This document shows positions 9,240-37,783 of a stretch of 56,827 bases of DNA, piece by piece; position 1 is the first letter of the stretch, and every line of letters begins with the position of its first letter. The stretch comes from Clostridiaceae bacterium. Lineage in GTDB: Bacteria > Bacillota > Clostridia > Lachnospirales > Lachnospiraceae. Where the stretch lies: contig JAJQGL010000012.1 of the NCBI GenBank assembly GCA_021200535.1, forward strand, positions 1-56,827, read 5' to 3'. The translations under genes and the position numbers were made by a program. The notes under the pieces are model-generated. The model was not told where the DNA came from, did not search any database, and saw nothing but the letters and a program-made list of their open reading frames with translations.

Positions 9240-9863
9240 ATGGTAATTAGTGGAAACATTGGGGCGAGCGCAAATTCACAGTCACTTTTTGGCGTTGGTC
9301 AGGCAGCCGATTCCTGCAGCAGAGCGATTCAGAAACAGATTGAAAATGTTCGCAGGCAGCTGCAGGAGTTATCATCCAACGGGGAGCTGTCGATGGAAGA
9401 GAAGATGAAAAAAAGGCAGGAGCTGCAGCAGGAAATTGCGGATCTAAACAATCAGCTTCGGGCGCATCAGATGGAAGTAAGAAGACAGGCACAGAAAAAG
9501 AGTGAAAATTCCATGGATGATATGCTGTGCGGAAACCGTCAGCCGCAGAAAGAATCAACAAAAGCCGGGACAGGTCTTTCGGCGGCGTCTATGCAGGCGG
9601 TTCTTTCTGCAGATAATTCCATGAGGCAGGTGCAGACGCAGTCGCAGGTTAAGACTGGACTAGAGGGAAGAGCCGGGGTGCTAAAGGCTGAAATCAAACA
9701 GGATGCCGGAGGAAATACCGAGGCAAAGGAGGCGGAGCTTGCGGATGTGGAAGAAAGGGCAAATAATGTGATATCCGCACAGATGAGTGCGTTGTCGGAT
9801 ATGCACAGAAGTCTTGAAAAAGTCGCAGAAGAGGACGGCAGCACCGACTCGGAACAGGAGTAA
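9240..9863 (+). CDS. FlxA-like family protein
   Basis: The protein has 207 residues. It has a low-complexity start (MVISGNIGASANSQSLF), then the FlxA-like region with a helical heptad stretch (KQIENVRRQLQELS ... MEEKMKKRQELQQEIADLNNQLR, about residues 32-80). The C-terminal half is rich in Gln, Ala and Ser with predicted helices. FlxA-like proteins are small coiled-coil proteins; in some motile bacteria their genes are under the flagellar sigma factor, and their function is unknown. GGAGG lies seven bases before the ATG. No flagellar genes are in the window. Confidence 0.75.
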   Translation: MVISGNIGASANSQSLFGVGQAADSCSRAIQKQIENVRRQLQELSSNGELSMEEKMKKRQELQQEIADLNNQLRAHQMEVRRQAQKKSENSMDDMLCGNRQPQKESTKAGTGLSAASMQAVLSADNSMRQVQTQSQVKTGLEGRAGVLKAEIKQDAGGNTEAKEAELADVEERANNVISAQMSALSDMHRSLEKVAEEDGSTDSEQE

Positions 9864-9905
9864 TCAGGAAGAGCTCCGCTTTCTTTTATCTACTTGCAGC
9901 AATCA

Positions 9906-9934
9906 TTGCATTTGCTTTCAAATTCTATTATAAT
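9906..9934 (+). promoter_or_regulatory. Promoter of the NRPS-like cluster
   Basis: TTGCAT at 9906-9911, 17 bases, TATAAT at 9929-9934. Transcription would begin near 9941, at the foot of the inverted repeat 9947-9978. The hexamers and much of the spacer recur at 15754-15784, between tetR and uvrB. Confidence 0.7.
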
Positions 9935-9946
9935 ACTTTATACAGA

Positions 9947-9978
9947 AAGGACAGTCTGGTCATTCTCTGACTGTCCTT
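9947..9978 (+). promoter_or_regulatory. 10-bp inverted repeat at the 5' end of the cluster transcript
   Basis: AAGGACAGTC at 9947-9956 and GACTGTCCTT at 9969-9978 form a perfect stem with a 12-base loop. Only CAGTTTTG follows, a weak T-run. It may be a weak terminator or attenuator, a stabilising 5' hairpin, or an operator just downstream of the promoter. Confidence 0.6.
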
Positions 9979-10009
9979 CAGTTTTGATATCATCAGGCGG
10001 TAATCCGAA

Positions 10010-10717
10010 ATGTCAATTACAAACCGAACCATAATTTATGCAGCAAATACGGCAGAACTGAAGGATGAATACTTATACCATGCATCTTATCGAAGGGTTA
10101 CGGATGAGAGGAAGAAAAAGGTGGACAGTTTATGCCTTCCAAGGGATAAAAGGCTGTCTCTTGGAGCAGAGCTTATCCTGCTTCATGGATTAAGAGCACG
10201 GAACATAAATTCTACAGAAATAAAATACAGGTATGGCGAAAAGGGCAAGCCATACCTTGTGGGAGAGAGCGGTGTGTATTTTAACCTGTCACATGCAGAT
10301 GAAATGGTTATCTGTGCAGTCTCTTTCCTGGAGATTGGCTGTGATGTGGAAAAGATTACCAATTTAAAAGGGGAAATTGCAAGGCGGTTTTTTGATGGCA
10401 GAGAATATGAATGGATCGCTGACCAAAAAACAGAGATGCTTCAGCGGGAGATGTTCTTTCGGCTGTGGACACTGAAAGAGAGCTTCATAAAAGCAACGGG
10501 CAGGGGACTGAGCCAGCCCATGAACTCCTTTTGCATTCGTTTTAACAGGGAGGGGCTTTTAGAGAATCTAAAGTATCAAAACGAGACATATTATTTTCAG
10601 GAAATTAATTTATGTGAGAATTATAAGTGCGCTGTATGCGGACTGGACAAAAATATTAGTGCAAAAAACGGCGTGCTGCTTGAGAGGCTGAATTTCCGTG
10701 ATGAGTTAAATAGTTAG
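10010..10717 (+). CDS. Sfp-type 4'-phosphopantetheinyl transferase
   Basis: The protein has 235 residues. It transfers the phosphopantetheine arm of CoA to a serine of a carrier protein. The family motifs are all present: FNLSHA (91-96), GCDVEKI (110-116, with the magnesium-binding Asp) and WTLKESFIKATGRGL (153-167). The size and the two-fold layout fit Sfp-type rather than AcpS-type enzymes, meaning those serving secondary metabolism. It is the first gene after a clear promoter and a leader hairpin. The obvious substrate is the small carrier protein encoded at 13303-13542. Confidence 0.93.
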   Translation: MSITNRTIIYAANTAELKDEYLYHASYRRVTDERKKKVDSLCLPRDKRLSLGAELILLHGLRARNINSTEIKYRYGEKGKPYLVGESGVYFNLSHADEMVICAVSFLEIGCDVEKITNLKGEIARRFFDGREYEWIADQKTEMLQREMFFRLWTLKESFIKATGRGLSQPMNSFCIRFNREGLLENLKYQNETYYFQEINLCENYKCAVCGLDKNISAKNGVLLERLNFRDELNS

Positions 10718-10783
10718 GCCGAATGGTATAAATCAGGAGAAAATCAAACATAGTTTATAGAAAAAGAGGTTAAAATATTTCGT

Positions 10784-11752
10784 ATGAAAAATAAAGAGAT
10801 TAAAATATTAGGGATGGCTTCTGCTGCGTTCAGCGTTTTTATGGTGTCCGGCTGGTCATTTTTTGAAACCATGATTCGCTGTAAAAACAAAAAAAAGCAG
10901 ACGAAAAAGCAATGGTTTCGGCTATCCCATACGACGATTAATCATCCAAGATATAAATTTGAAAAGGAGTATGAGGAAGGCAAGGCATGGTGCAGAGAGC
11001 AGTATATGCAGGATTGTTACATAAAAAGTATAGACGGCCTTTTGCTCCATGCATCATATCTGCCGGCCAAAAAGGCAAAACGCTTTGTCATACTGTGCCA
11101 CGGTTATAAGGGAAGCGGGTTTGGTGATTTTGCGTATATTGCACGTTTTTTACATGAAAATGAGTGCAATTTACTTTTTATAGACCAACGGTGCTGTGGT
11201 GAAAGCAAGGGAGAATTTATTACTTTTGGAGCAAAGGAGCAGCATGATATACGGGAATGGGCGTATTTTGTTTCCGAGAGAAACCATGCCAAGCTGCCTG
11301 TTTATCTTTATGGAGAGTCCATGGGAGCGTCATCGGTGCTAATGGCATCAGGGCATAAACTGCCAAAGGAGGTTCGGGGATTGATTGCCGACTGCGGATT
11401 TAGTTCCATGAAAGCGCAGCTCAGGGATATTGCCGCTAACTGGTTTCACTTAAATTTTGTTGAATTGCTTTTGTTCCGCGTAGATTTGTTCTGCCGGTTT
11501 TTTGGCGGATTTGCCATGAAAGAGGCAGATGCTGCAGCAGGCCTAAAGAGAAATAAAAGGCCGGTTTTATTTTTTCATGGAGAAAAGGATACATATGTTG
11601 TCCCAAAAAACACAAAATATAATTATACGTTATGTACAGCCCCAAAGGAGATTTTGATTATACCGGAGGCAAGGCATCTTTGCAGTGCATACGAAGCGCC
11701 GGAATTATATAGGAAAAAACTGTTGGAATTTTTTAACAGGTATGACGGATAA
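10784..11752 (+). CDS. Membrane-anchored alpha/beta hydrolase
   Basis: The protein has 322 residues. A hydrophobic N-terminal segment (about 7-30) probably anchors it. The hydrolase core follows with the oxyanion region LCHGYKGSGFGD and the nucleophile elbow GESMG (Ser179). The catalytic acid is in HGEKDTYV (Asp269) and the base in EARHLC (His298). The family includes BAAT/acyl-CoA thioester N-terminal-like and cell-surface esterases. The substrate is unknown. It lies 66 bases after the Sfp-type gene in the same direction, so it may process or release the product of the carrier-protein system. Confidence 0.88.
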   Translation: MKNKEIKILGMASAAFSVFMVSGWSFFETMIRCKNKKKQTKKQWFRLSHTTINHPRYKFEKEYEEGKAWCREQYMQDCYIKSIDGLLLHASYLPAKKAKRFVILCHGYKGSGFGDFAYIARFLHENECNLLFIDQRCCGESKGEFITFGAKEQHDIREWAYFVSERNHAKLPVYLYGESMGASSVLMASGHKLPKEVRGLIADCGFSSMKAQLRDIAANWFHLNFVELLLFRVDLFCRFFGGFAMKEADAAAGLKRNKRPVLFFHGEKDTYVVPKNTKYNYTLCTAPKEILIIPEARHLCSAYEAPELYRKKLLEFFNRYDG

Positions 11753-11856
11753 GTCTCGGTCAAATTGAAGTTAAATGTTTGTTAACTCCTTTAGGGGGTA
11801 GAAATAAAAAATAAAGTGTGATAGTTTTTTAGGAGGAAAAAATAAGGAGGTAATCC

Positions 11857-13242
11857 ATGAAAGAGTATTATCCTTTAACAGCAGCGCAGAAAATGCATTA
11901 TGACTGGATTAAGAAATACGGTACGCAGCAGGTGTCAGGTGTCAGTGTTGTGGCAGCTTTGAAATCTGCTCTTGATTTTGGGCTTCTAAAGAAATGTATT
12001 CAGTTGGAATTTGAGCGTTACGGCTGTATGAGAATTCGCTTTACAAAGGCAGATGAAAAGGGAGAGATAAAGCAGTATATTGTTAAAAAAGACACAAGAG
12101 ATATTCCCTTAAAGGATTTATCGGGGATGAGCCTTGATCAGGCAGACAATCTTATGCAGCAGTGGGCATATGAAACCTTTGAGGGAGATGACATACCGCT
12201 GTGTGACGTTGCGATGGTAAAGCTTCCCGAGGGTTATAATGGTTTCTTTATCCATATGGATCACAGACTTATTGATTCCTGTGGACTGGTTGTTATGATT
12301 AACGACCTGATGCAGTTATATACACATTACAGATTTAAAGCAGCCTATCCGGATGATCTGGCAGATTTTGAGGAAACGCTGGTAAAAGATCTGAAAAGGG
12401 CAAATAATGAAAAGCGTTTTGCAAAGGATAAGAAGTTTTGGGACGAGCAGCTTGATACCCTGGGAGAGCCTCTCTATTCTGACATTCAGGGGCCTGCGGT
12501 CCTTGAAAAATCAAGAAAGCTTCACAATGATAAAAATCTCAGGGCTGCGGATATAGAAATGAATCAATTATTTGTTGAGGTAAAGGATTATTATCTGGAG
12601 CCTGAGCCAACGAAAAATTTGCTTGATTTTTGTATGAACCATCAACTTTCCATGACGAATCTTTTGCTTCTTGGAATCCGAACCTATCTGTCAAAGGTAA
12701 ATAACGGACAGGAAGATATTACGATTGAGAATTTTATCTCCAGGCGTTCCACTCATGATGAATGGACATCAGGAGGGAGCAGGACGATCATGTTTCCATG
12801 CAGAACCGTAATTCCTGCAGAGACAGAATTTCTGGCAGCAGCTTATGAAATCCAGAATGTACAGAACAAAATTTATATGCATAGCAATTACGATCCTGCA
12901 CTAATCCGGGAAGAAATGAGAAAACGATACCATACTCCGCGCAATACGGCGTATGAAAGCTGTTATCTCACATACCAGCCAATGCCTGTCAAGATGGATA
13001 ATCCGCATCTTGAGGATATTCCGCAGCATTCCAAATGGTTTGCAAACGGTGCGGCTACCAAAAAAATGTATTTAACGGTATCCCACACGGGAAATGGCGG
13101 AATGAATTTTTCTTACCATTATCAGACGGCTCAATTACAGGAACATGACATGGAGCTTTTATATTATTATATGATGCGTATCCTTTTTAAGGGGATAGCG
13201 GAGCCTGATATGACGATCGGTGAAATCATAGAACAGGTTTAA
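11857..13242 (+). CDS. Stand-alone NRPS condensation-like domain protein
   Basis: The protein has 461 residues, one condensation (C) domain and nothing else. It opens with YPLTAAQKMHYDW, a typical C-domain start. The active-site motif reads DHRLIDS (135-141), a variant of HHxxxDG that keeps the second histidine (His136) and the aspartate (Asp140). C domains join a carrier-bound acyl or aminoacyl group to an amine or alcohol acceptor. Being free-standing, it must work in trans with the carrier protein 60 bases downstream. A strong AAGGAGG precedes the ATG. The acceptor and product are unknown. Confidence 0.85.
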   Translation: MKEYYPLTAAQKMHYDWIKKYGTQQVSGVSVVAALKSALDFGLLKKCIQLEFERYGCMRIRFTKADEKGEIKQYIVKKDTRDIPLKDLSGMSLDQADNLMQQWAYETFEGDDIPLCDVAMVKLPEGYNGFFIHMDHRLIDSCGLVVMINDLMQLYTHYRFKAAYPDDLADFEETLVKDLKRANNEKRFAKDKKFWDEQLDTLGEPLYSDIQGPAVLEKSRKLHNDKNLRAADIEMNQLFVEVKDYYLEPEPTKNLLDFCMNHQLSMTNLLLLGIRTYLSKVNNGQEDITIENFISRRSTHDEWTSGGSRTIMFPCRTVIPAETEFLAAAYEIQNVQNKIYMHSNYDPALIREEMRKRYHTPRNTAYESCYLTYQPMPVKMDNPHLEDIPQHSKWFANGAATKKMYLTVSHTGNGGMNFSYHYQTAQLQEHDMELLYYYMMRILFKGIAEPDMTIGEIIEQV

Positions 13243-13302
13243 GATTCGGCAGCAAATAAAATTACAAAATAAAACATGAAATCATTTATTATGGAGGGAA
13301 AA

Positions 13303-13542
13303 ATGACACAGGAGATGCAGTTTAAGAAAATAGTAGCACAGTATTGCGAGACAGCAGCAGAGGATATTACAGATGACATGAGATTTCGGGAGGATTTGGG
13401 ATTTTCTTCTCTTGGATTTATGTCCTTTTTGGGAGAACTGGAGGATACCTTTGACGTAGAGCTTGATGAGGAGGATGCCTTACAGGTTGTTACTATTTCC
13501 GAGGCGTTTGAATTGTTGAAGAAATTGCAGCAGGAGAGTTAG
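13303..13542 (+). CDS. Acyl/peptidyl carrier protein
   Basis: The protein has 79 residues, one carrier domain. The attachment region reads DLGFSSLGFMSF, so Ser36 would carry the phosphopantetheine. The usual Asp before this Ser is replaced by Ser35. The remaining acidic helix (ELEDTFDVELDEEDA) is typical of carrier proteins recognised by partner enzymes. The start at 13303 is chosen because GGAGG ends five bases before it; an in-frame ATG at 13276 has none. It is placed between the condensation protein and the ligase, so it is probably loaded by the ligase and unloaded by the condensation protein. Confidence 0.92.
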   Translation: MTQEMQFKKIVAQYCETAAEDITDDMRFREDLGFSSLGFMSFLGELEDTFDVELDEEDALQVVTISEAFELLKKLQQES

Positions 13543-13604
13543 TGTGCAGATTCTTTTTTGGCGGCTGAAATTTTGCAGATATGGGAAAGGACATGGTAAT
13601 TCGT

Positions 13605-15167
13605 ATGGAAAAACTGATTCGGGATATATTAGAAGAAAGTGAAAAAAGTTATTCGGACATAACGGCAGTAAAATGGCTGTGGAAAAAGGAAATTCAGGAG
13701 GAAAGCTACGCCACACTGATGGAACATGCCGTCCAGCTGAGAAAGGGATTGCTGGCAGAAGGCTTTCAGGGGAAACATATTGCCCTTATTGGAACCAGCT
13801 CTGTAGAATGGATTGAATGCTATCTTGCAATTATTACCGGAAAAACAGTTGCAGTGCCGCTTGATGCAGGACTTCCGGATGACGATTTAATTGACCTGAT
13901 CAACCGTTCCGACTCGGAAGGACTTTTTTTAAGTCCGAAAAATAAAGCGCTCCTTGAAGCGATTCTCACACAATGCCCGAAAATCAGAAAGGTCTGGCTG
14001 CTTCAGGAGGAAGAAGCAAATGCTGAAAATGAGAAGGCAGAGTCCCTTTCTAAATTAAAGGCGGCTTCTCAAAATGGGGCGATGGATTCAGACAGACCAG
14101 CTCCGGAAGATATAGCAACCATTATTTTTACTTCAGGAACAACAGGAAAAAGCAAAGGGGTTATGCTGACGCAGAACAATCTGGCGACAAACGTTAGCTC
14201 TGTGGATTACTGGTCAGAGCCGGGCACTGTCTTGCTGAGCGTTTTGCCTATTCACCATGCTTTCTGCCTGGTTATGGACTGGCTAAAGGGATTTTCTTTA
14301 GGCACTACGATATGTATCAATGATTCCTTACTTCATATGGTGAGAAATATGAGTGTATTTAAACCAGAGGTAATGCTTATGGTGCCGCTTATGATTGAGA
14401 CCATTTACAAGAGGCTCACAGCAGCGGATCCTGCTATTCCGAAAAATATTTTGGCAGAGAAAGTTTTTGGAGGAAACCTTAAAATCATATTTACCGGAGG
14501 AGCGCATCTTGATCCGTATTATATAGATCAGTTTGCTGAATATGGTGTAGATGTATTAGAGGGATATGGCATGTCAGAGTGTTCGCCGGTTATCAGCTCA
14601 AATACGCCGAAAGATCATAAGGCAGGTTCGATCGGAAAGCCGCTCTCAAACGTTGAGGTTGCGTTTGAGGATGGAGAAATTCTTGTAAAAGGCACCAGTG
14701 TTATGAAGGGCTATTACAAGATGCCGGAAGAAACAGCACAGACGCTTAAGGACGGATGGCTTCATACGGGAGATAAGGGCTACATGGATGAAGACGGTTT
14801 CCTGTTTATAAATGGACGTGTCAAGAATCTGATTATTCTTTCAAACGGGGAAAATATTTCTCCGGAGGAAATTGAAAATAAGATTGCCTTAGGAGAACTT
14901 GTAGGTGAGGTAATTGTAACGGGTGAGAACAATGGACTTACTGCAAGAATTTATCCGGAGCAGGAGGCTGTGGCTGCGAAAGGACTGGATGAGGAAGCCG
15001 TGAGAAAGGAATTGCAGGAATTTTTGGATCAATACAACAAAAATCAGCCTACGTACCGTCAGATCACGGGATTGGTTGTAAGAAAAAATCCGTTTATCAG
15101 AAGTTCAACAAAGAAAATCAAGAGACAGGAAGCCATGATTGACGAGGCGGTGCTTCCTACGACATAA
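13605..15167 (+). CDS. AMP-dependent acyl ligase (adenylate-forming enzyme)
   Basis: The protein has about 520 residues. ANL-superfamily motifs are clear: FTSGTTGKSKG (about 175-185), LPIHHAF, YGMSECSPV, GWLHTGDKGYMDEDGF, and INGRVKNLI with ENISPEEIE. Near the C-terminus IRSSTKKIKR supplies the catalytic lysine. The overall look is that of long-chain acyl-CoA/acyl-ACP ligases more than NRPS A domains, so the substrate may be a fatty or other carboxylic acid. The start is uncertain among ATGs at 13581, 13593 and 13605. The 3' end overlaps the convergent tetR gene by 11 bases. It likely loads the carrier protein encoded upstream. Confidence 0.92.
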   Translation: MEKLIRDILEESEKSYSDITAVKWLWKKEIQEESYATLMEHAVQLRKGLLAEGFQGKHIALIGTSSVEWIECYLAIITGKTVAVPLDAGLPDDDLIDLINRSDSEGLFLSPKNKALLEAILTQCPKIRKVWLLQEEEANAENEKAESLSKLKAASQNGAMDSDRPAPEDIATIIFTSGTTGKSKGVMLTQNNLATNVSSVDYWSEPGTVLLSVLPIHHAFCLVMDWLKGFSLGTTICINDSLLHMVRNMSVFKPEVMLMVPLMIETIYKRLTAADPAIPKNILAEKVFGGNLKIIFTGGAHLDPYYIDQFAEYGVDVLEGYGMSECSPVISSNTPKDHKAGSIGKPLSNVEVAFEDGEILVKGTSVMKGYYKMPEETAQTLKDGWLHTGDKGYMDEDGFLFINGRVKNLIILSNGENISPEEIENKIALGELVGEVIVTGENNGLTARIYPEQEAVAAKGLDEEAVRKELQEFLDQYNKNQPTYRQITGLVVRKNPFIRSSTKKIKRQEAMIDEAVLPTT

Positions 15168-15735
15168 AAGGGAGCATGCCATCCGTAAATGCCTGCGTAA
15201 GAATTTCTGCGATAACCTCTGGGGGAGTCTGAAATTTTTCCCTGGTCCATTTGTGAAGTACGCCAAGCACGCTGCCAATGGTACAGGCGATCATATAAGA
15301 AAATTCGTCTTTACTATGGTTGGAAGGGGTTGTGGTTTTCGTAACATTGGATACATAGTGGTGAAATAAAGTCATCAGTTTTTCGAAAAAGGTATCGCCT
15401 CTGGGGCTGCCGAGAAGGGTAGCCAAAAATACATTTGTCATGGTGTACTGGCAGATTGTTAAAAAATAAGACTTACACATATCACGGTCATCCTTGGGAT
15501 GAAAGGTTTCCATGAGGGCAAATATATCATTAATTGTTCTATCTTCAATAACAGATACAAGAGCCGAAATATTTTCGTAGTGGTTATAAAAAGTGCTTCG
15601 AACGATTCCGGCTCTTTTTATTACATCAGATACGGTTATTTTGTCTAAAGCTTTTTCCTTCAGCACTAAAAAAAATGCATCATATATGGCTTCGTCAACT
15701 ACATTGTATCTTTCATCCGTTATGGTATCAGACAT
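15157..15735 (-). CDS. TetR-family transcriptional regulator
   Basis: The protein has 192 residues. The N-terminal helix-turn-helix is clear (ITVSDVIKRAGIVRSTFYNHYENISAL, about 38-64). The C-terminal ligand and dimer domain is variable and contains TreR/DUF-like helices common in clostridial TetR proteins. The start at 15735 is chosen for the GGAGG six bases before it; an in-frame ATG at 15759 lacks one. It is convergent with the ligase gene and divergent from uvrB. A promoter-like segment in the tetR-uvrB gap is nearly identical to that of the Sfp cluster, so it may repress that cluster and itself; this is inference. Confidence 0.92.
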   Translation of the reverse strand: MSDTITDERYNVVDEAIYDAFFLVLKEKALDKITVSDVIKRAGIVRSTFYNHYENISALVSVIEDRTINDIFALMETFHPKDDRDMCKSYFLTICQYTMTNVFLATLLGSPRGDTFFEKLMTLFHHYVSNVTKTTTPSNHSKDEFSYMIACTIGSVLGVLHKWTREKFQTPPEVIAEILTQAFTDGMLPFMS

Positions 15736-15753
15736 ATCCGCCTCCTTTTTGGA

Positions 15754-15782
15754 TTGCATTTGCTTTCGGATTTCATTATAAT
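15754..15782 (+). promoter_or_regulatory. Promoter of uvrB, similar to the NRPS-like cluster promoter
   Basis: TTGCAT at 15754-15759, 17 bases, TATAAT at 15777-15782. The 31 bases 15754-15784 match 9906-9936 at 26 positions, including an unbroken TTGCATTTGCTTTC. It lies about 20 bases outside the tetR start, so a protein bound here could control both directions. Confidence 0.7.
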
Positions 15783-15849
15783 AAATTTATGAAAAAAGGG
15801 CAAGCTTCTGTTTGGAACATGCATGGTCTGCAGCAATGGAGGAATCAGT

Positions 15850-17850
15850 ATGGATCATTTTAATGAATCGGCACGATTTGTTTTACATTCGGAATACAAA
15901 CCAACCGGAGATCAGCCGGAAGCCATCAAAGCTCTTGTAAATGGTTTCCGGGAGGGCAATCAATTCCAAACCCTTCTCGGTGTTACCGGTTCCGGAAAAA
16001 CTTTTACGATGGCGAATGTCATTGAGCAGTTAAACAGGCCTACCCTGGTTATTGCCCATAACAAAACACTGGCGGCACAGCTGTATGGTGAGTTTAAGGA
16101 ATTTTTCCCGGAGAATGCAGTGGAATATTTTGTGTCCTACTATGATTATTATCAGCCGGAGGCATACGTGCCTTCTTCGGATACTTATATCGAAAAAGAT
16201 TCTTCCGTAAACGATGAGATTGATAAGCTGCGCCATTCGGCAACGGCAGCGCTGACTGAGCGCAGGGATGTGATTATTGTGGCAAGCGTGTCCTGCATAT
16301 ATGGGTTAGGCAGCCCGATTGATTACCAGAATATGACAGTAAATCTGCGGCCGGGGATGGTAAAGGACCGGGATGATGTGATCAGGCGTCTGGTGGAAAT
16401 ACAGTATACGCGCAATGATATGGATTTTAAGAGAGGAACGTTTCGTGTCAGGGGGGATGTTCTGGAAATTTTTCCGGTTAACCAGTCAGATAAAGCAGTT
16501 CGGGTTGAATTTTTTGGGGATGAAGTGGACCGGATTACAGAAATAGACGTGCTGACCGGGCAGGTTAAAACAGAATTAGAGCATATTGTTGTTTTTCCGG
16601 CGTCACATTATGTAGTAGAGGCAGAAGCCATGGAGCGCGCGATTCGGGACATTGAGCTTGAATTGGAAGAGCGGGTGCGTGAATTTCAGAGTGAAGGGAA
16701 GCTGTTGGAGGCACAGCGGATTTCAGAGAGGACAAATTTTGATATTGAAATGATGCGGGAGACAGGCTTTTGTTCCGGAATTGAAAATTATTCCAGACAT
16801 TTGGCCGGCTTAAAGCCGGGAGAAACACCGAATACGCTGATGAATTATTTTTCGGATGATTTTTTGATTTTGATTGATGAGTCCCATATTACCATACCGC
16901 AGATCCGTGGAATGTATGCCGGTGACCGCTCGAGAAAGGAAACACTGGTGGAGTATGGCTTCCGGCTCCCTTCTGCGCTTGATAACAGACCGCTTAACTT
17001 TCAGGAATTTGAAGGATTTATAAATCAGATGCTTTTCGTTTCGGCAACGCCAAATGTATATGAAGATCAGCATGAGCTTGCCAGAGTGGAGCAGATTATC
17101 CGGCCTACCGGTCTGTTGGATCCGGAGATTGCTGTTCGTCCGGTGGAGGGGCAGATTGATGATCTGATCGGTGAGATCGGCAGAACGACAGAGGCGGGAA
17201 ACAAGGTAATGGTTTGTACCCTGACGAAAAAAATGGCAGAGGATTTGACCGATTATATGAAGGAAGTGGGGATTCGTGTGAAATATCTTCATTCTGACAT
17301 TGATACATTAGAACGTTCGGAGATCATTCGTGATATGCGCATGGATTTGTTTGATGTTTTGGTGGGAATCAATCTGCTTCGAGAGGGGCTGGATATTCCG
17401 GAAATTGCGCTGGTTGCAATATTGGATGCGGACAAGGAAGGATTTTTGCGCTCGGAAATTTCATTGATACAGACGGTGGGACGTGCGGCAAGGAATGCGG
17501 AAGGTCATGTTATCATGTATGCAGATACGATTACAGATTCCATGCGCAATGCGATTGAGGAAACAAACCGGCGCCGCGCCATTCAGATGAAGTACAACGA
17601 AGAGCATGGCATCACTCCGCAGACCATTAAAAAGGCTGTTCGGGAGGTAATGCGTATCTCGAAGAAGGTAGATGCGAAGGAATTTGATCTGGATAAAGAC
17701 CTGGAATCCATGAACCGGAAAGAGCTTGGCGTTGTATTGAAAAGCATACAGAAAAAGATGAATGCAGCAGCGGCAGATTTAAATTTTGAAGAGGCGGCTG
17801 TACTTCGCGACCAGATGATTGAGATAAAAAAACAGATGCAAAAGCTTTGA
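15850..17850 (+). CDS. uvrB: Excinuclease ABC subunit B
   Basis: The protein has 666 residues, the normal UvrB length. It receives damaged DNA from UvrA and, with UvrC, makes the incisions in nucleotide excision repair. Visible features are [11 protein letters not shown], the Walker A loop GVTGSGKTF, the beta-hairpin region [12 protein letters not shown], the Walker B DESH, helicase motifs SATPN and [10 protein letters not shown], and the C-terminal UVR domain ([20 protein letters not shown]) that binds UvrC. The start at 15850 has GGAGG seven bases before it; the in-frame ATG at 15823 does not. uvrA and uvrC are not next to it. Confidence 0.98.
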
Positions 17851-35268: not shown

Positions 35269-35391
35269 ATGCTTTTGGATTACCCGGTCGGTTTTGTGTA
35301 CACGCTGTTTTGGGCGGCGTTTTATGACGGCTACGTTTATGGGACAACGGCAGATACCTGCAAAGAGGAGAGTGCATCATGGTTTCGTTAA
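35269..35391 (+). CDS. Possible 40-residue upstream ORF overlapping the LacI-type gene
   Basis: ATG 35269 (or GTG 35260) opens a frame that reads MLLDYPVGFVYTLFWAAFYD and goes on to CKEESASWFR, ending at 35391, 13 bases inside the LacI-type gene. The composition is protein-like and hydrophobic in the middle. The ribosome binding site (GAGCGG) is weak. It fills the leader between the promoter and the regulator gene, so it could couple translation or act as a leader peptide. It may also be chance. Confidence 0.35.
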   Translation: MLLDYPVGFVYTLFWAAFYDGYVYGTTADTCKEESASWFR

Positions 35392-36401
35392 AGGATATAG
35401 CGAGGGAGTGCAGAGTGTCGGCAGCCACTGTGAGTAAGGCGTTAAATGACCGGAAGGATATTGGGGAAGAGACAAAAGCCAGGATAAAAAAGACGGCAGA
35501 GGAAATGGGATACTTTCCGAACTCTGCAGCAAGAATCTTAAAAACAAAGCGATCCTATCATATTGGAGTTCTGTTTTTGGATGATGCGGGAAGCGGGCTG
35601 ACGCATGAATATTTTTCCGGTATGCTGAATGGAATAATGTTTGAGGCGGAAAGTCTTGGGTACGATATTACGTTTATCAATACCCACTCTCAAAAAAGAA
35701 AGATGTCTTATCTGGAACATAGCCGTTATCGTAATTTTGACGGAGTTGTTATTGTGTGCGTGGATTTTAACCATCCCGATGTACAGCAGCTGATGAATAA
35801 CAACAGAATACCGGTGGTTACGATTGATTATCTGCATCAGAATTGTACGGCGGTCAGTTCGAATAATGTAAAAGGAATAGAAAATCTGGTGCAGTATATT
35901 TATGAGAAAGGGCACCGGAGGATTGCTTATATCCATGGGCAGAGTTATTCCTATGTAACAAAGGAACGTCTGGCGGGCTTTCATCGGGCCGTGGAAAAGC
36001 TTGGGCTGGAAATCCCGGAGGAATATATCCGGGAGGCAAAGTATCTTGAAACAGAAGATACGGTAAAGCAGACAAAAGAGCTGTTAAAATTAAAGAACAG
36101 GCCGACATGTATTATGTATCCGGACGATACCTCCCTGATTGGCGGGTTAAACGTGATAAACAGAGAGGGGCTTCGCATACCGGAAGATATTTCGGTTGCG
36201 GGATACGATGGGACAAAAGTTTCGCAGCTGCTGCGGCCAAGGCTGACAACGATTTGCCAGAATACGGCGCAGATTGGGAAGGAAGCGGCCAACCGGCTGA
36301 TATCCCAGATTGAAAAACCGAAAACGGCTCTTGTTGAAAGAGTTGTTATAGATGGGGAGCTTTTAATGGGAGAATCCGTTGGAAGTGTAACCGGACAGTA
36401 A
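35379..36401 (+). CDS. LacI-family regulator of the ABC sugar operon
   Basis: The protein has 340 residues. The DNA-binding part has LKDIARECRVSAATVSKALND, FPNSAARILKTKRSYHIG. The sensor domain has GVVIVCVDF, YIYEKGHRRIAYIHGQ, CIMYPDDTSLIGGLNVI and ISVAGYDGTKVSQLLRPRLTT, which are typical. GAGGAG lies eight bases before the ATG. The ABC binding protein follows after 29 bases, so this is the local regulator, probably binding the 16-mer repeats upstream. The inducer sugar is unknown. Confidence 0.95.
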   Translation: MVSLKDIARECRVSAATVSKALNDRKDIGEETKARIKKTAEEMGYFPNSAARILKTKRSYHIGVLFLDDAGSGLTHEYFSGMLNGIMFEAESLGYDITFINTHSQKRKMSYLEHSRYRNFDGVVIVCVDFNHPDVQQLMNNNRIPVVTIDYLHQNCTAVSSNNVKGIENLVQYIYEKGHRRIAYIHGQSYSYVTKERLAGFHRAVEKLGLEIPEEYIREAKYLETEDTVKQTKELLKLKNRPTCIMYPDDTSLIGGLNVINREGLRIPEDISVAGYDGTKVSQLLRPRLTTICQNTAQIGKEAANRLISQIEKPKTALVERVVIDGELLMGESVGSVTGQ

Positions 36402-36430: not shown

Positions 36431-37783
36431 ATGAGAAAAAAATTATTAAGCACTGTTTTGTGCTTCAGCATGGTAGCAGCCATGATGGTAGGATGTGGTT
36501 CTGATTCATCGACATCAGACAGCGCCGGCGAGGCATCGTCCAGTGATGAGGGGAAAGTATTAAATATTTATTGCTGGAATGAGGAATTTAAAACACGTAT
36601 TACAGATCACTATTCTGACTATGAGGAAGTTGATTCAACAACAGGAAAGATTGGTGATGTAACGGTACAGTGGAATATTACACCGAGCGATGACAATGCA
36701 TACCAGAATAATCTGGATGAAACATTGCTGAAGCAGGAAGACGCTGATGCAGATGATAAGATCGATATCTTCCTGGTAGAAGCTGACTATGCATTAAAGT
36801 ATGTAGACACAGATTACACAATGTCAGTAGCTGATCTGGGCATCACGGATTCTGATCTGGCAAACCAGTATCAGTATACAAAGGATATTGTTACAGATTC
36901 TGACGGCGTATTAAAGGGTGTTTCATGGCAGGCATGCCCGGGCGTTCTGTTCTATAATCGCGATGCGGCAAAGGAAGTGCTTGGCACGGACGATCCGGAA
37001 GAGGTTCAGGAGTATGTAAAGGATTGGGATACCTTCAATGAAACTGCAGCAACATTAAAAGATGCAGGATATACGATTATGTCTTCTGTAAACGACAGCT
37101 ATCGTGTATATTCCAACAATGTAACCTCTAAGTGGGTAGAAGATGGAAAGATCAACATTGATGACAATATCCTGAAGTGGGTAGATGATTCCAAGGCGCT
37201 TGTAGATGCAGGATATACCAATACATATGAGCTGTGGGGTGATGACTGGTCGAAGGGCTTCTATCCGGATGGAAATGTATTTTGCTATTTCGGACCGGCA
37301 TGGCTTGTAAACTTTAGTATGGCAGCAGATACGGAAGGCAGCATCGGATATGAAGGCGGCTGGGGCGCTACAGAAGGACCTCAGGGCTTCTTCTGGGGTG
37401 GAACATGGATCTGCGCCGCAACCGGTACTGACAACCAGAGCCTGATCAAAGACATCATGCTCCAGCTGACGACAGATGAAGACACGATGCTTGAAATTGT
37501 AGAAGCAGATGATGATTTTGTAAACAATAAATCCGCTATGGAAACAATGGCTGCAAGCGACAGCTATTCCAGCGACATATTAGGCGGACAGAATCCGTTG
37601 AGTATTTACTGTGAAAACGTAGACAGCCTTGACCTGAGCAACCTGTCATCTTATGACCAGGGCTGCAACGAGGAATTCCAAAATGCAATGAAGGATTATT
37701 TTGAGGGAAATGCAACATTGGATGAAGCTAAGGAACAATTCTACAAAGCGGTAGTTGAAAAGTATCCGGAACTGACATATTAG
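36431..37783 (+). CDS. ABC sugar transporter, solute-binding lipoprotein
   Basis: The protein has 450 residues. The signal ends in the lipobox MVGC (about Cys22), followed by a Ser/Asp-rich spacer. The mature part is a family 1 extracellular binding protein, with IYCWNEEFKTRI at the start, GVSWQACPGVLFYNRDAAKEVLGTDDPEE in the middle and WGGTWICAATG near the ligand cleft. It would catch an oligosaccharide outside the cell and pass it to the two permeases downstream. AAGGAGG lies before the ATG. A strong hairpin follows the gene, which would raise its level over the permeases. Confidence 0.94.
   Translation: MRKKLLSTVLCFSMVAAMMVGCGSDSSTSDSAGEASSSDEGKVLNIYCWNEEFKTRITDHYSDYEEVDSTTGKIGDVTVQWNITPSDDNAYQNNLDETLLKQEDADADDKIDIFLVEADYALKYVDTDYTMSVADLGITDSDLANQYQYTKDIVTDSDGVLKGVSWQACPGVLFYNRDAAKEVLGTDDPEEVQEYVKDWDTFNETAATLKDAGYTIMSSVNDSYRVYSNNVTSKWVEDGKINIDDNILKWVDDSKALVDAGYTNTYELWGDDWSKGFYPDGNVFCYFGPAWLVNFSMAADTEGSIGYEGGWGATEGPQGFFWGGTWICAATGTDNQSLIKDIMLQLTTDEDTMLEIVEADDDFVNNKSAMETMAASDSYSSDILGGQNPLSIYCENVDSLDLSNLSSYDQGCNEEFQNAMKDYFEGNATLDEAKEQFYKAVVEKYPELTY

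Follow-up and report, generated by a model that had tools for sequence, protein, structure and literature searches.

A Probable Fatty Acid Amide Cluster in an Uncultured Lachnospiraceae Bacterium, with a Frequent Hydrolase Partner and a Conserved Control Element

Gene Content of the Locus

The window considered here, the whole stretch of 56,827 nucleotides of contig JAJQGL010000012.1 from an uncultured Lachnospiraceae bacterium (genome 91% complete), carries a compact nonribosomal peptide synthetase (NRPS)-like locus in which a free-standing condensation (C) enzyme, an acyl carrier protein (ACP), and an acyl ligase are encoded as separate proteins, very probably a fatty acid amide (FAA) cluster of the so-called CTA type, which would join a fatty acid to a free amine. 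The features of the locus comprise:

10010..10717, + strand: Sfp-type 4'-phosphopantetheinyl transferase (PPTase), apparently accessory; Pfam ACPS 64.7 bits, AASDHPPT_N
10784..11752, + strand: alpha/beta hydrolase (S33/Hydrolase_4); Pfam Hydrolase_4 59.5 bits; one N-terminal hydrophobic segment
11728..11828, + strand: promoter/operator element; model R1 63.0 bits, E 2.1e-17; overlaps the last hydrolase codons and the gap before the C gene
11799..11804, + strand: -35-like hexamer TAGAAA, with a 17-bp spacer to the -10-like hexamer
11822..11827, + strand: extended -10-like hexamer TAGTTT in TGnTAnnnT, conserved columns of the A3 alignment
11857..13242, + strand: free-standing FAA condensation (C) enzyme, a relative of OaaC; Pfam 118 bits; DHRLIDS at residues 135-141
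13276..13542, + strand: ACP; PP-binding 47.5 bits; phosphopantetheine serine S45 in DLGFSSL
13581..15167, + strand: acyl ligase with a predicted OaaA-like role; AMP-binding 217 bits
15157..15759, - strand: TetR-family regulator (TetR_C_8, Pfam), the 3' end of which overlaps the 3' end of the ligase gene by 11 bp

All six genes are open at these places and each is supported by Pfam above its cut-off, in agreement with the original prediction of stand-alone parts in a row on one strand, closed by a convergent TetR gene. The gene places given there also hold, with the extent (10010..15735) ending 24 bases before the end of the TetR gene at 15759; its list contained the six genes and overlooked the conserved promoter/operator element at 11728-11828. 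The genes on the + strand are separated by gaps of 66, 104, 33, and 38 bp, and the shared strand together with the 33- and 38-bp gaps suggests that the C, ACP, and ligase genes are co-transcribed.

The Condensation Enzyme and the Class of the Cluster

According to Pfam, the C protein comprises one condensation domain that takes up the entire protein, and this is the single condensation-domain match in the window genome. A phmmer comparison with the PDB returns as best match 12KH_A (465 aa, E 9.6e-192), aligned over residues 2-459 of 461 and gap-free around the OaaC 214-224 helix, followed by canonical NRPS condensation domains (PvdL, tyrocidine) at E 1e-4 to 7e-3. The entry 12KH corresponds to OaaC from Coprococcus eutactus (PMC13142362). 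Over its length, the window protein shares 57% identity with OaaC, and its DHRLIDS motif agrees with the noncanonical (D/H)HxxxDS of FAA enzymes, e.g., DHxxxDS (PMC13142362).

A search of 397 genomes of the family for the C protein gave some match in 76, and the matches fall by identity into (i) clade I, at least 57% identical; (ii) a sister clade II, about 34-40% identical; (iii) a few proteins at 26-28%; and (iv) a weak remainder, mostly inside long frames resembling large NRPSs. A quick tree of 65 rows, with canonical NRPS C domains left out, places OaaC beside the 36 other clade I rows (SH-aLRT 98).

FAA systems comprise separate C, ACP, and adenylating (A) proteins, a discovery credited to Chang et al. 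2021 (PMC13142362). The window locus displays the corresponding attributes: (i) separate C, carrier, and adenylating ligase proteins, with the carrier gene between the other two; (ii) a C protein that groups in the FAA clade with OaaC, by the 12KH match and by the tree; and (iii) a DHRLIDS motif that fits (D/H)HxxxD followed by S or A in place of HHxxxDG. The fused C-A-PCP (peptidyl carrier protein) modules of a canonical modular NRPS are absent from the six genes according to Pfam, and HHxxxDG is absent from the C protein, with DHRLIDS instead; moreover, Pfam revealed neither an acceptor carrier nor a second C domain nor a fused thioesterase in the six genes, and the 91%-complete genome has no further C-domain match. 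A locus with only one C enzyme, one carrier, one ligase, and no thioesterase domain could also be read as a fragment of a canonical NRPS or a decayed module rather than as a complete pathway; nevertheless, the frames and active-site residues are intact, scores of loci share the gene order, and these parts alone suffice in FAA systems, so that the comparative data already contradict such a fragment, which is most improbable.

In the ACP, the phosphopantetheine serine S45 is conserved in at least 97% of the 140 rows compared (120 of them distinct), and the ligase motifs TSGTTGKxKG and K512-I-x-R are conserved in at least 97% of 105 rows. The best NCBIfam model for the ligase is a long-chain fatty-acid CoA ligase subfamily, at 261 bits and below its cut-off of 476. 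The earlier proposal of a fatty-acyl donor, and of a single amide bond made by a set of just one ligase, carrier, and C enzyme, is supported.

On the strength of this identity of the C protein to OaaC (57%) and of its DHxxxDS motif, the locus is assigned to the FAA ("CTA") clusters; it is real, apparently complete, and widely conserved, and its layout and product class are already known. The earlier statement that no named product exists for this layout does not stand, since FAA systems are known, with oleoyl-aminovaleric acid (OAA) as a named product (PMC13142362), and C-T-A operons have been described, in 36 Lachnospiraceae species (PMC13060934). In addition, cultures of CTA-positive Blautia and Coprococcus contain more acyl amines (PMC13060934).

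Comparison with these known systems highlights both likenesses and differences. The OAA cluster of C. eutactus shares the free-standing C protein (57% identical), ACP, and adenylating ligase, as well as the DHxxxDS motif, and comprises three proteins in PMC13142362, whereas the window adds a hydrolase, an Sfp-type PPTase, a TetR regulator, and a control element. Likewise, the CTA operons of other Lachnospiraceae, Blautia wexlerae among them, have the C-T-A gene order of the window and are three-gene operons in PMC13060934, whereas the window holds additional genes and the element. The words hydrolase, TetR, and promoter do not occur in the main text of PMC13142362 on the OAA cluster, nor in that of PMC13060934 on the CTA operons.

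Two points weigh against the assignment. OaaC is the only biochemically studied relative that was placed, and its 57% identity to the window protein, the one such value compared, lies under the cut-off of PMC13060934 for a CTA homologue, at least 70% identity of both C protein and ligase to a catalogued protein of Chang et al. Furthermore, the product class of the window locus, and of the 75-89% identical group described below, is predicted from sequence.

Conservation of the Gene Order

The closest relatives of the window C protein, the best 80 of 151 kept from a contig scan, are 75-89% identical to it and form, together with the window, the window-type group A (81 sources, the window and L002-L081), many records of which are labelled as ruminant, deer, or mouse samples; the counts of neighbouring genes given here and below take in only loci with enough flanking DNA. 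In group A, the ligase gene lies 3' of the C gene in 69/69 loci, an ACP is present in 74/77, and a convergent TetR gene in 55/58. Among the three loci without an ACP match, L051 and L057 owe the miss to an over-extended ORF start. The TetR misses comprise L052 and L073, in which the gene has moved, and L071, which has none despite a full downstream flank; L073, with an altered order, retains the hydrolase, TetR, C, ACP, and ligase genes. In the third locus without an ACP, L020 (8001-9985), the hydrolase, C protein, control element, and TetR gene are present and neither ACP nor ligase lies between C and TetR, a gap due to either a deletion or an assembly error.

Beyond group A, six OaaC-like loci (L134-L139) encode C proteins 56-74% identical to that of the window, with the ligase in 5/5 and a convergent TetR gene in 3/5, and with the hydrolase in 0/4 and the PPTase in 0/4. 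The clade II loci (30, among L112-L153) resemble the window in displaying the hydrolase, C, ACP, and ligase genes in the same order, with a ligase in 27/27 and an ACP in 29/30, and differ from it in several respects: (i) the C protein is 34-38% identical to that of the window and its motif is mostly of the DHxxxDA type; (ii) the control element is lacking; and (iii) a downstream TetR gene of the window family occurs in 0/27, whereas in 22/27 the upstream side carries a weak TetR-like gene that faces away. The recurrence of the C-ACP-ligase order in scores of other Lachnospiraceae loci shows that it is not due to chance, and the order is kept well beyond close strains, so that the original prediction passes the first of the tests by which it could have failed.

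Several further arrangements were encountered. The genome (G403) of L164, which belongs to the genus of the window, carries a pair of the clade II type (hydrolase 32% and C protein 36% identical to those of the window), which suggests that a single genus harbours two FAA types. Three loci (L140:7941-9329, L141:8072-9475, and L142:8104-9501), in genomes of 5.7-6.9 Mb, encode OaaC-related C proteins 38-40% identical to the window protein with the motif DHRIMDS, and no ACP or ligase match was found in the stretch covered around these C genes; directly upstream of C lies a LacI-type gene in L140 and an S33 hydrolase gene in L142, L141 has an AbiH-type gene on the other side, and the genome of L141 (G149) also carries a clade II cluster (L121). 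Finally, L131:8057-12017 encodes a free-standing C protein 27% identical to that of the window, with the motif NHMIQDS, followed by ligase, carrier, and PPTase in another order.

The Amine Acceptor

The polar columns of the C protein were compared between the 94 rows of clade I (91 of them distinct, with OaaC among them) and the 33 rows of clade IIa. R137, located within the active-site motif, R187, and K403 are invariant in clade I, and K243 is present in 91/94 rows. In clade IIa, R137 is replaced mostly by methionine (M22, L6, R3, K1, F1), R187 by alanine (A31, S1, R1), and K403 by alanine, glycine, threonine, and others (A21, G6, T3), with no lysine. Since OaaC uses omega-amino acids and the positive residues are conserved, some of these may hold the acceptor carboxylate, and the window enzyme may use a similar acceptor. 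An omega-amino acid such as 5-aminovalerate or gamma-aminobutyric acid (GABA), as for OaaC, thus has about an even chance of being the acceptor, judging from this comparison of residues. In the abstract of Chang 2021, five of six FAAs reportedly have aryl-ethylamine acceptors and one aminovaleric acid.

The same FAA cluster could instead use a neutral or aromatic amine (dopamine, tyramine, tryptamine, or ethanolamine), since other FAA systems are said in that abstract to take such amines and the identity of the window C protein to OaaC is only 57%. N-acyl tryptamines are ascribed to Chang 2021 in PMC11500036, and acyl ethanolamines and oleoyl dopamine occur in CTA-positive Blautia (PMC13060934). 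The presence of R137, R187, and K403 in 94/94 clade I rows and their frequent loss in IIa fit an acceptor carboxylate, on a comparison of sequences, and make the neutral or aromatic amine a rather unlikely choice; the weight of the residue argument is nevertheless limited by the lack of a clade II enzyme with a known acceptor among those compared. It also counts against the omega-amino acid that the three IIs proteins, whose acceptor is not assigned, keep R137 and K403 (3/3), along with R187.

The chemistry of the OAA enzymes favours the omega-amino acid acceptor, as OaaA, OaaACP, and OaaC together form amides in vitro with aminovaleric acid and GABA, and do not form them from oleoyl-CoA (PMC13142362). 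The suggestion of an N-acyl amino acid product comes close, as OaaC accepts aminovaleric acid and GABA, even though the FAA class is said to exclude proteinogenic and nonproteinogenic amino acids (PMC13142362).

The Alpha/Beta Hydrolase

A hydrolase gene lies near the C gene (within 8 kb) in 53/63 group A loci, upstream within 2.5 kb in 49/63. In clade II, it is near C in 29/29 and directly upstream in 28/29, overlapping the C gene by 4 bp in 14/28, as the ORFs were called. Residues S179, D269, and H298 are invariant in 102/102 hydrolase rows (93 distinct) and form a putative catalytic triad. A strong N-terminal hydrophobic segment is displayed by 83/102 rows; its C-terminal flank is the more positively charged one in 68/83 and its N-terminal flank in 8, a distribution that points to a cytoplasmic catalytic domain. 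In the PDB, most proteins hit by the hydrolase profile are esterases, cinnamoyl/feruloyl esterases, or monoglyceride lipases, and the NCBIfam matches of the window hydrolase all fall far under cut-off. It is conceivable, with odds somewhat below even, that the hydrolase, anchored in the membrane, acts on its inner side and supplies the ligase with fatty acids released from glycerolipids.

A slightly less favoured role is the removal of product or of mis-loaded acyl groups, by cleaving the amide or clearing the carrier, in a make-and-break cycle. The NCBIfam model matched by most of the hydrolases (36/40) is the N-acyl-homoserine lactonase UilS, which for the window protein comes second, at 23 bits against a cut-off of 400, and the gene is co-encoded, with the 4-bp overlap in half of the clade II pairs; set against this, the PDB matches are mostly the esterases and lipases named above, and no thioesterase family is found among the Pfam matches of the window hydrolase.

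The release of fatty acids from glycerolipids is itself opposed by the 10/63 group A loci and 4/4 OaaC-like loci with no hydrolase near C, where amide formation cannot need a linked hydrolase. In addition, a single clade for the group I and group II hydrolases was neither shown nor rejected (approximately unbiased test, p 0.158, tree with unlinked paralogs); group I joins unlinked paralogs in the hydrolase tree, and one unlinked protein lies inside group II.

The Control Element and the TetR Regulator

In group A, the DNA preceding the C gene contains a common block of some 100 bp. Of 79 upstream sequences, 55 fit a pattern with GTCA, TGT, and TTA, and 40 of these were aligned without gaps over 110 columns (the A3 alignment); five of the 15 left out have a single-base gap in the preceding alignment. 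GTCA, TGT, and TTA are invariant in A3 because the rows were chosen by them, whereas T79, T99, T102, A103, and T107, also invariant, and G81 and G100, nearly so, are not part of that pattern. T79 corresponds to the T of the -35 box, and T99, T102, A103, and T107 lie in the TGnTAnnnT box. An inverted repeat, TATCAAACA/TGTTTGATA, occurs in many group A loci and is degenerate in the window. A sigma-B-like promoter and an RNA leader were also considered for the element, and both were set aside after the alignment gave TnG, a 17-bp spacer, and TGnTAnnnT.

The element model R1, sequence-only and trained on 40 sources with the window outside the training set, detects the element upstream of C in 79/81 group A sources, including 39/41 of those not used in training. 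The misses are L041, the contig of which begins in C, and L071; L052, with its TetR gene moved, scores 24 bits. L071 alone in group A is without a TetR gene although its downstream flank is complete, and it lacks the element too, which suggests that the element accompanies a linked TetR gene. Among the OaaC-like loci, the model gives weak matches in L134 (25.7 bits), L135 (19.0), and L138 (14.3) and none in L136, L137, and L139; it finds nothing in 34 clade II, IIs, and more distant loci. The remaining weak matches come from the inverted repeat read on the reverse strand, apart from a single one in L061 (14.3 bits).

The element is specific to its locus. Under strict filters it occurs in 6 of 200 family genomes, once each and always beside a C gene, and the exact core pattern occurs once each in 5/15 relatives and not in the other 10. 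With up to three mismatches allowed, a 16-mer taken from the element has 27 matches in its own genome against 47 for the reversed control, revealing no wider regulon at that level. A search of Rfam over 9700-16000, at E up to 1, returned no match, so no known RNA family accounts for the element. A promoter and terminator scan gave counts equal to those of shuffles (16 against 14.5 and 4 against 4.5), with the boxes of the element unlisted, and no exact dyad upstream of the hydrolase, C, or TetR genes is found in more than two loci. A literature search among open-licence papers, a scope outside which Chang 2021 and Elmassry 2025 lie, yielded nothing on the regulation of FAA clusters.

From the co-occurrence in these loci, the linked TetR protein probably controls the C-ACP-ligase genes through the 11728-11828 element. 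The only curated NCBIfam match of the TetR protein is the DhaS activator (TIGR02366), at 42.4 bits against a cut-off of 129, short of membership. Conserved blocks just upstream of a -35 box occupy the usual place of activator binding. The location of the block and the sub-cut-off DhaS match together suggest, as a guess, that TetR acts as an activator, and it would perhaps respond to a fatty acyl ligand. Against control of this kind stand the DhaS match, far under its cut-off, and the nature of the TetR-element link, a co-occurrence within related loci. As the hydrolase and PPTase genes lie upstream of the promoter in group A, they must be expressed from another promoter.

The Sfp-Type PPTase and Neighbouring Features

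The Sfp gene, proposed earlier as a part of the cluster, is present in the window and is not a constant partner, lying near C in 2/60 group A and 1/27 clade II loci with enough upstream DNA; these counts are lower bounds, the profile having been built from three rows. In the genus of the window, the PPTase gene adjoins the hydrolase gene in 4/9 loci with a close hydrolase (window included). The window genome has two PF01648 matches, the Sfp-type one of the locus and an AcpS-size one on another contig. Such a match occurs in 43/44 genomes, 30/31 with the C protein and 13/13 without, and Sfp-size PPTases are common in the family whether or not the C protein is present. The same-genus genome G192 carries the cluster, and its only PPTase match is a 126-aa frame; in G395, which encodes the C protein, no match was detected. 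An obligate partnership was therefore rejected, PPTases occurring with and without the C protein and G192 and G395 being without a detected Sfp-size enzyme; by these gene counts, the transferase appears to be accessory and not core to the cluster.

Two further features were observed in the window. A 9-bp inverted repeat, AGGACAGTC / GACTGTCCT, lies at 9948-9977, between a TATAAT-like box (9929) and the PPTase start, a possible terminator or attenuator. At 36431-37783, directly 3' of a LacI-type regulator gene (35379-36401), a 450-aa open frame shows no Pfam match at E 0.001.

Proposed Pathway

We infer the substrates, the role of the hydrolase, and the TetR-element contact with its sign in the following scheme. 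The ligase would use ATP to activate a fatty acid, which probably comes from the diet or the host, and would load it onto the phosphopantetheinylated carrier; with the acyl-carrier as its donor and an amine that diffuses freely as its acceptor, the C enzyme would then release the N-acyl amide without a thioesterase. A more speculative and rather doubtful extension is a lipid-responsive FAA system, in which the anchored hydrolase would feed fatty acids from membrane or diet straight to the ligase, and a dedicated TetR activator, acting via an operator upstream of the -35 box, would switch on the C-ACP-ligase genes as acyl ligands build up, turning toxic fatty acids into amides, the hydrolase having possibly joined the pathway twice independently.

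Implications

FAAs of gut bacteria reportedly act on host G protein-coupled receptors (PMC13142362), and a preprint links the pathway to fatty acid detoxification (PMC13060934). Beyond the published accounts consulted, the comparison adds (i) the frequent hydrolase partner, (ii) the dedicated control element, and (iii) the indication that Sfp is not core, points that Chang 2021 and Elmassry 2025 may contain. The products of FAA clusters are probably lipids resembling host signalling molecules, and group A, at 75-89% identity, widens the set of likely FAA producers. The frequent hydrolase partner and the dedicated, cluster-specific operator merit further attention and offer direct handles on the fatty acid source and the timing of amide production.

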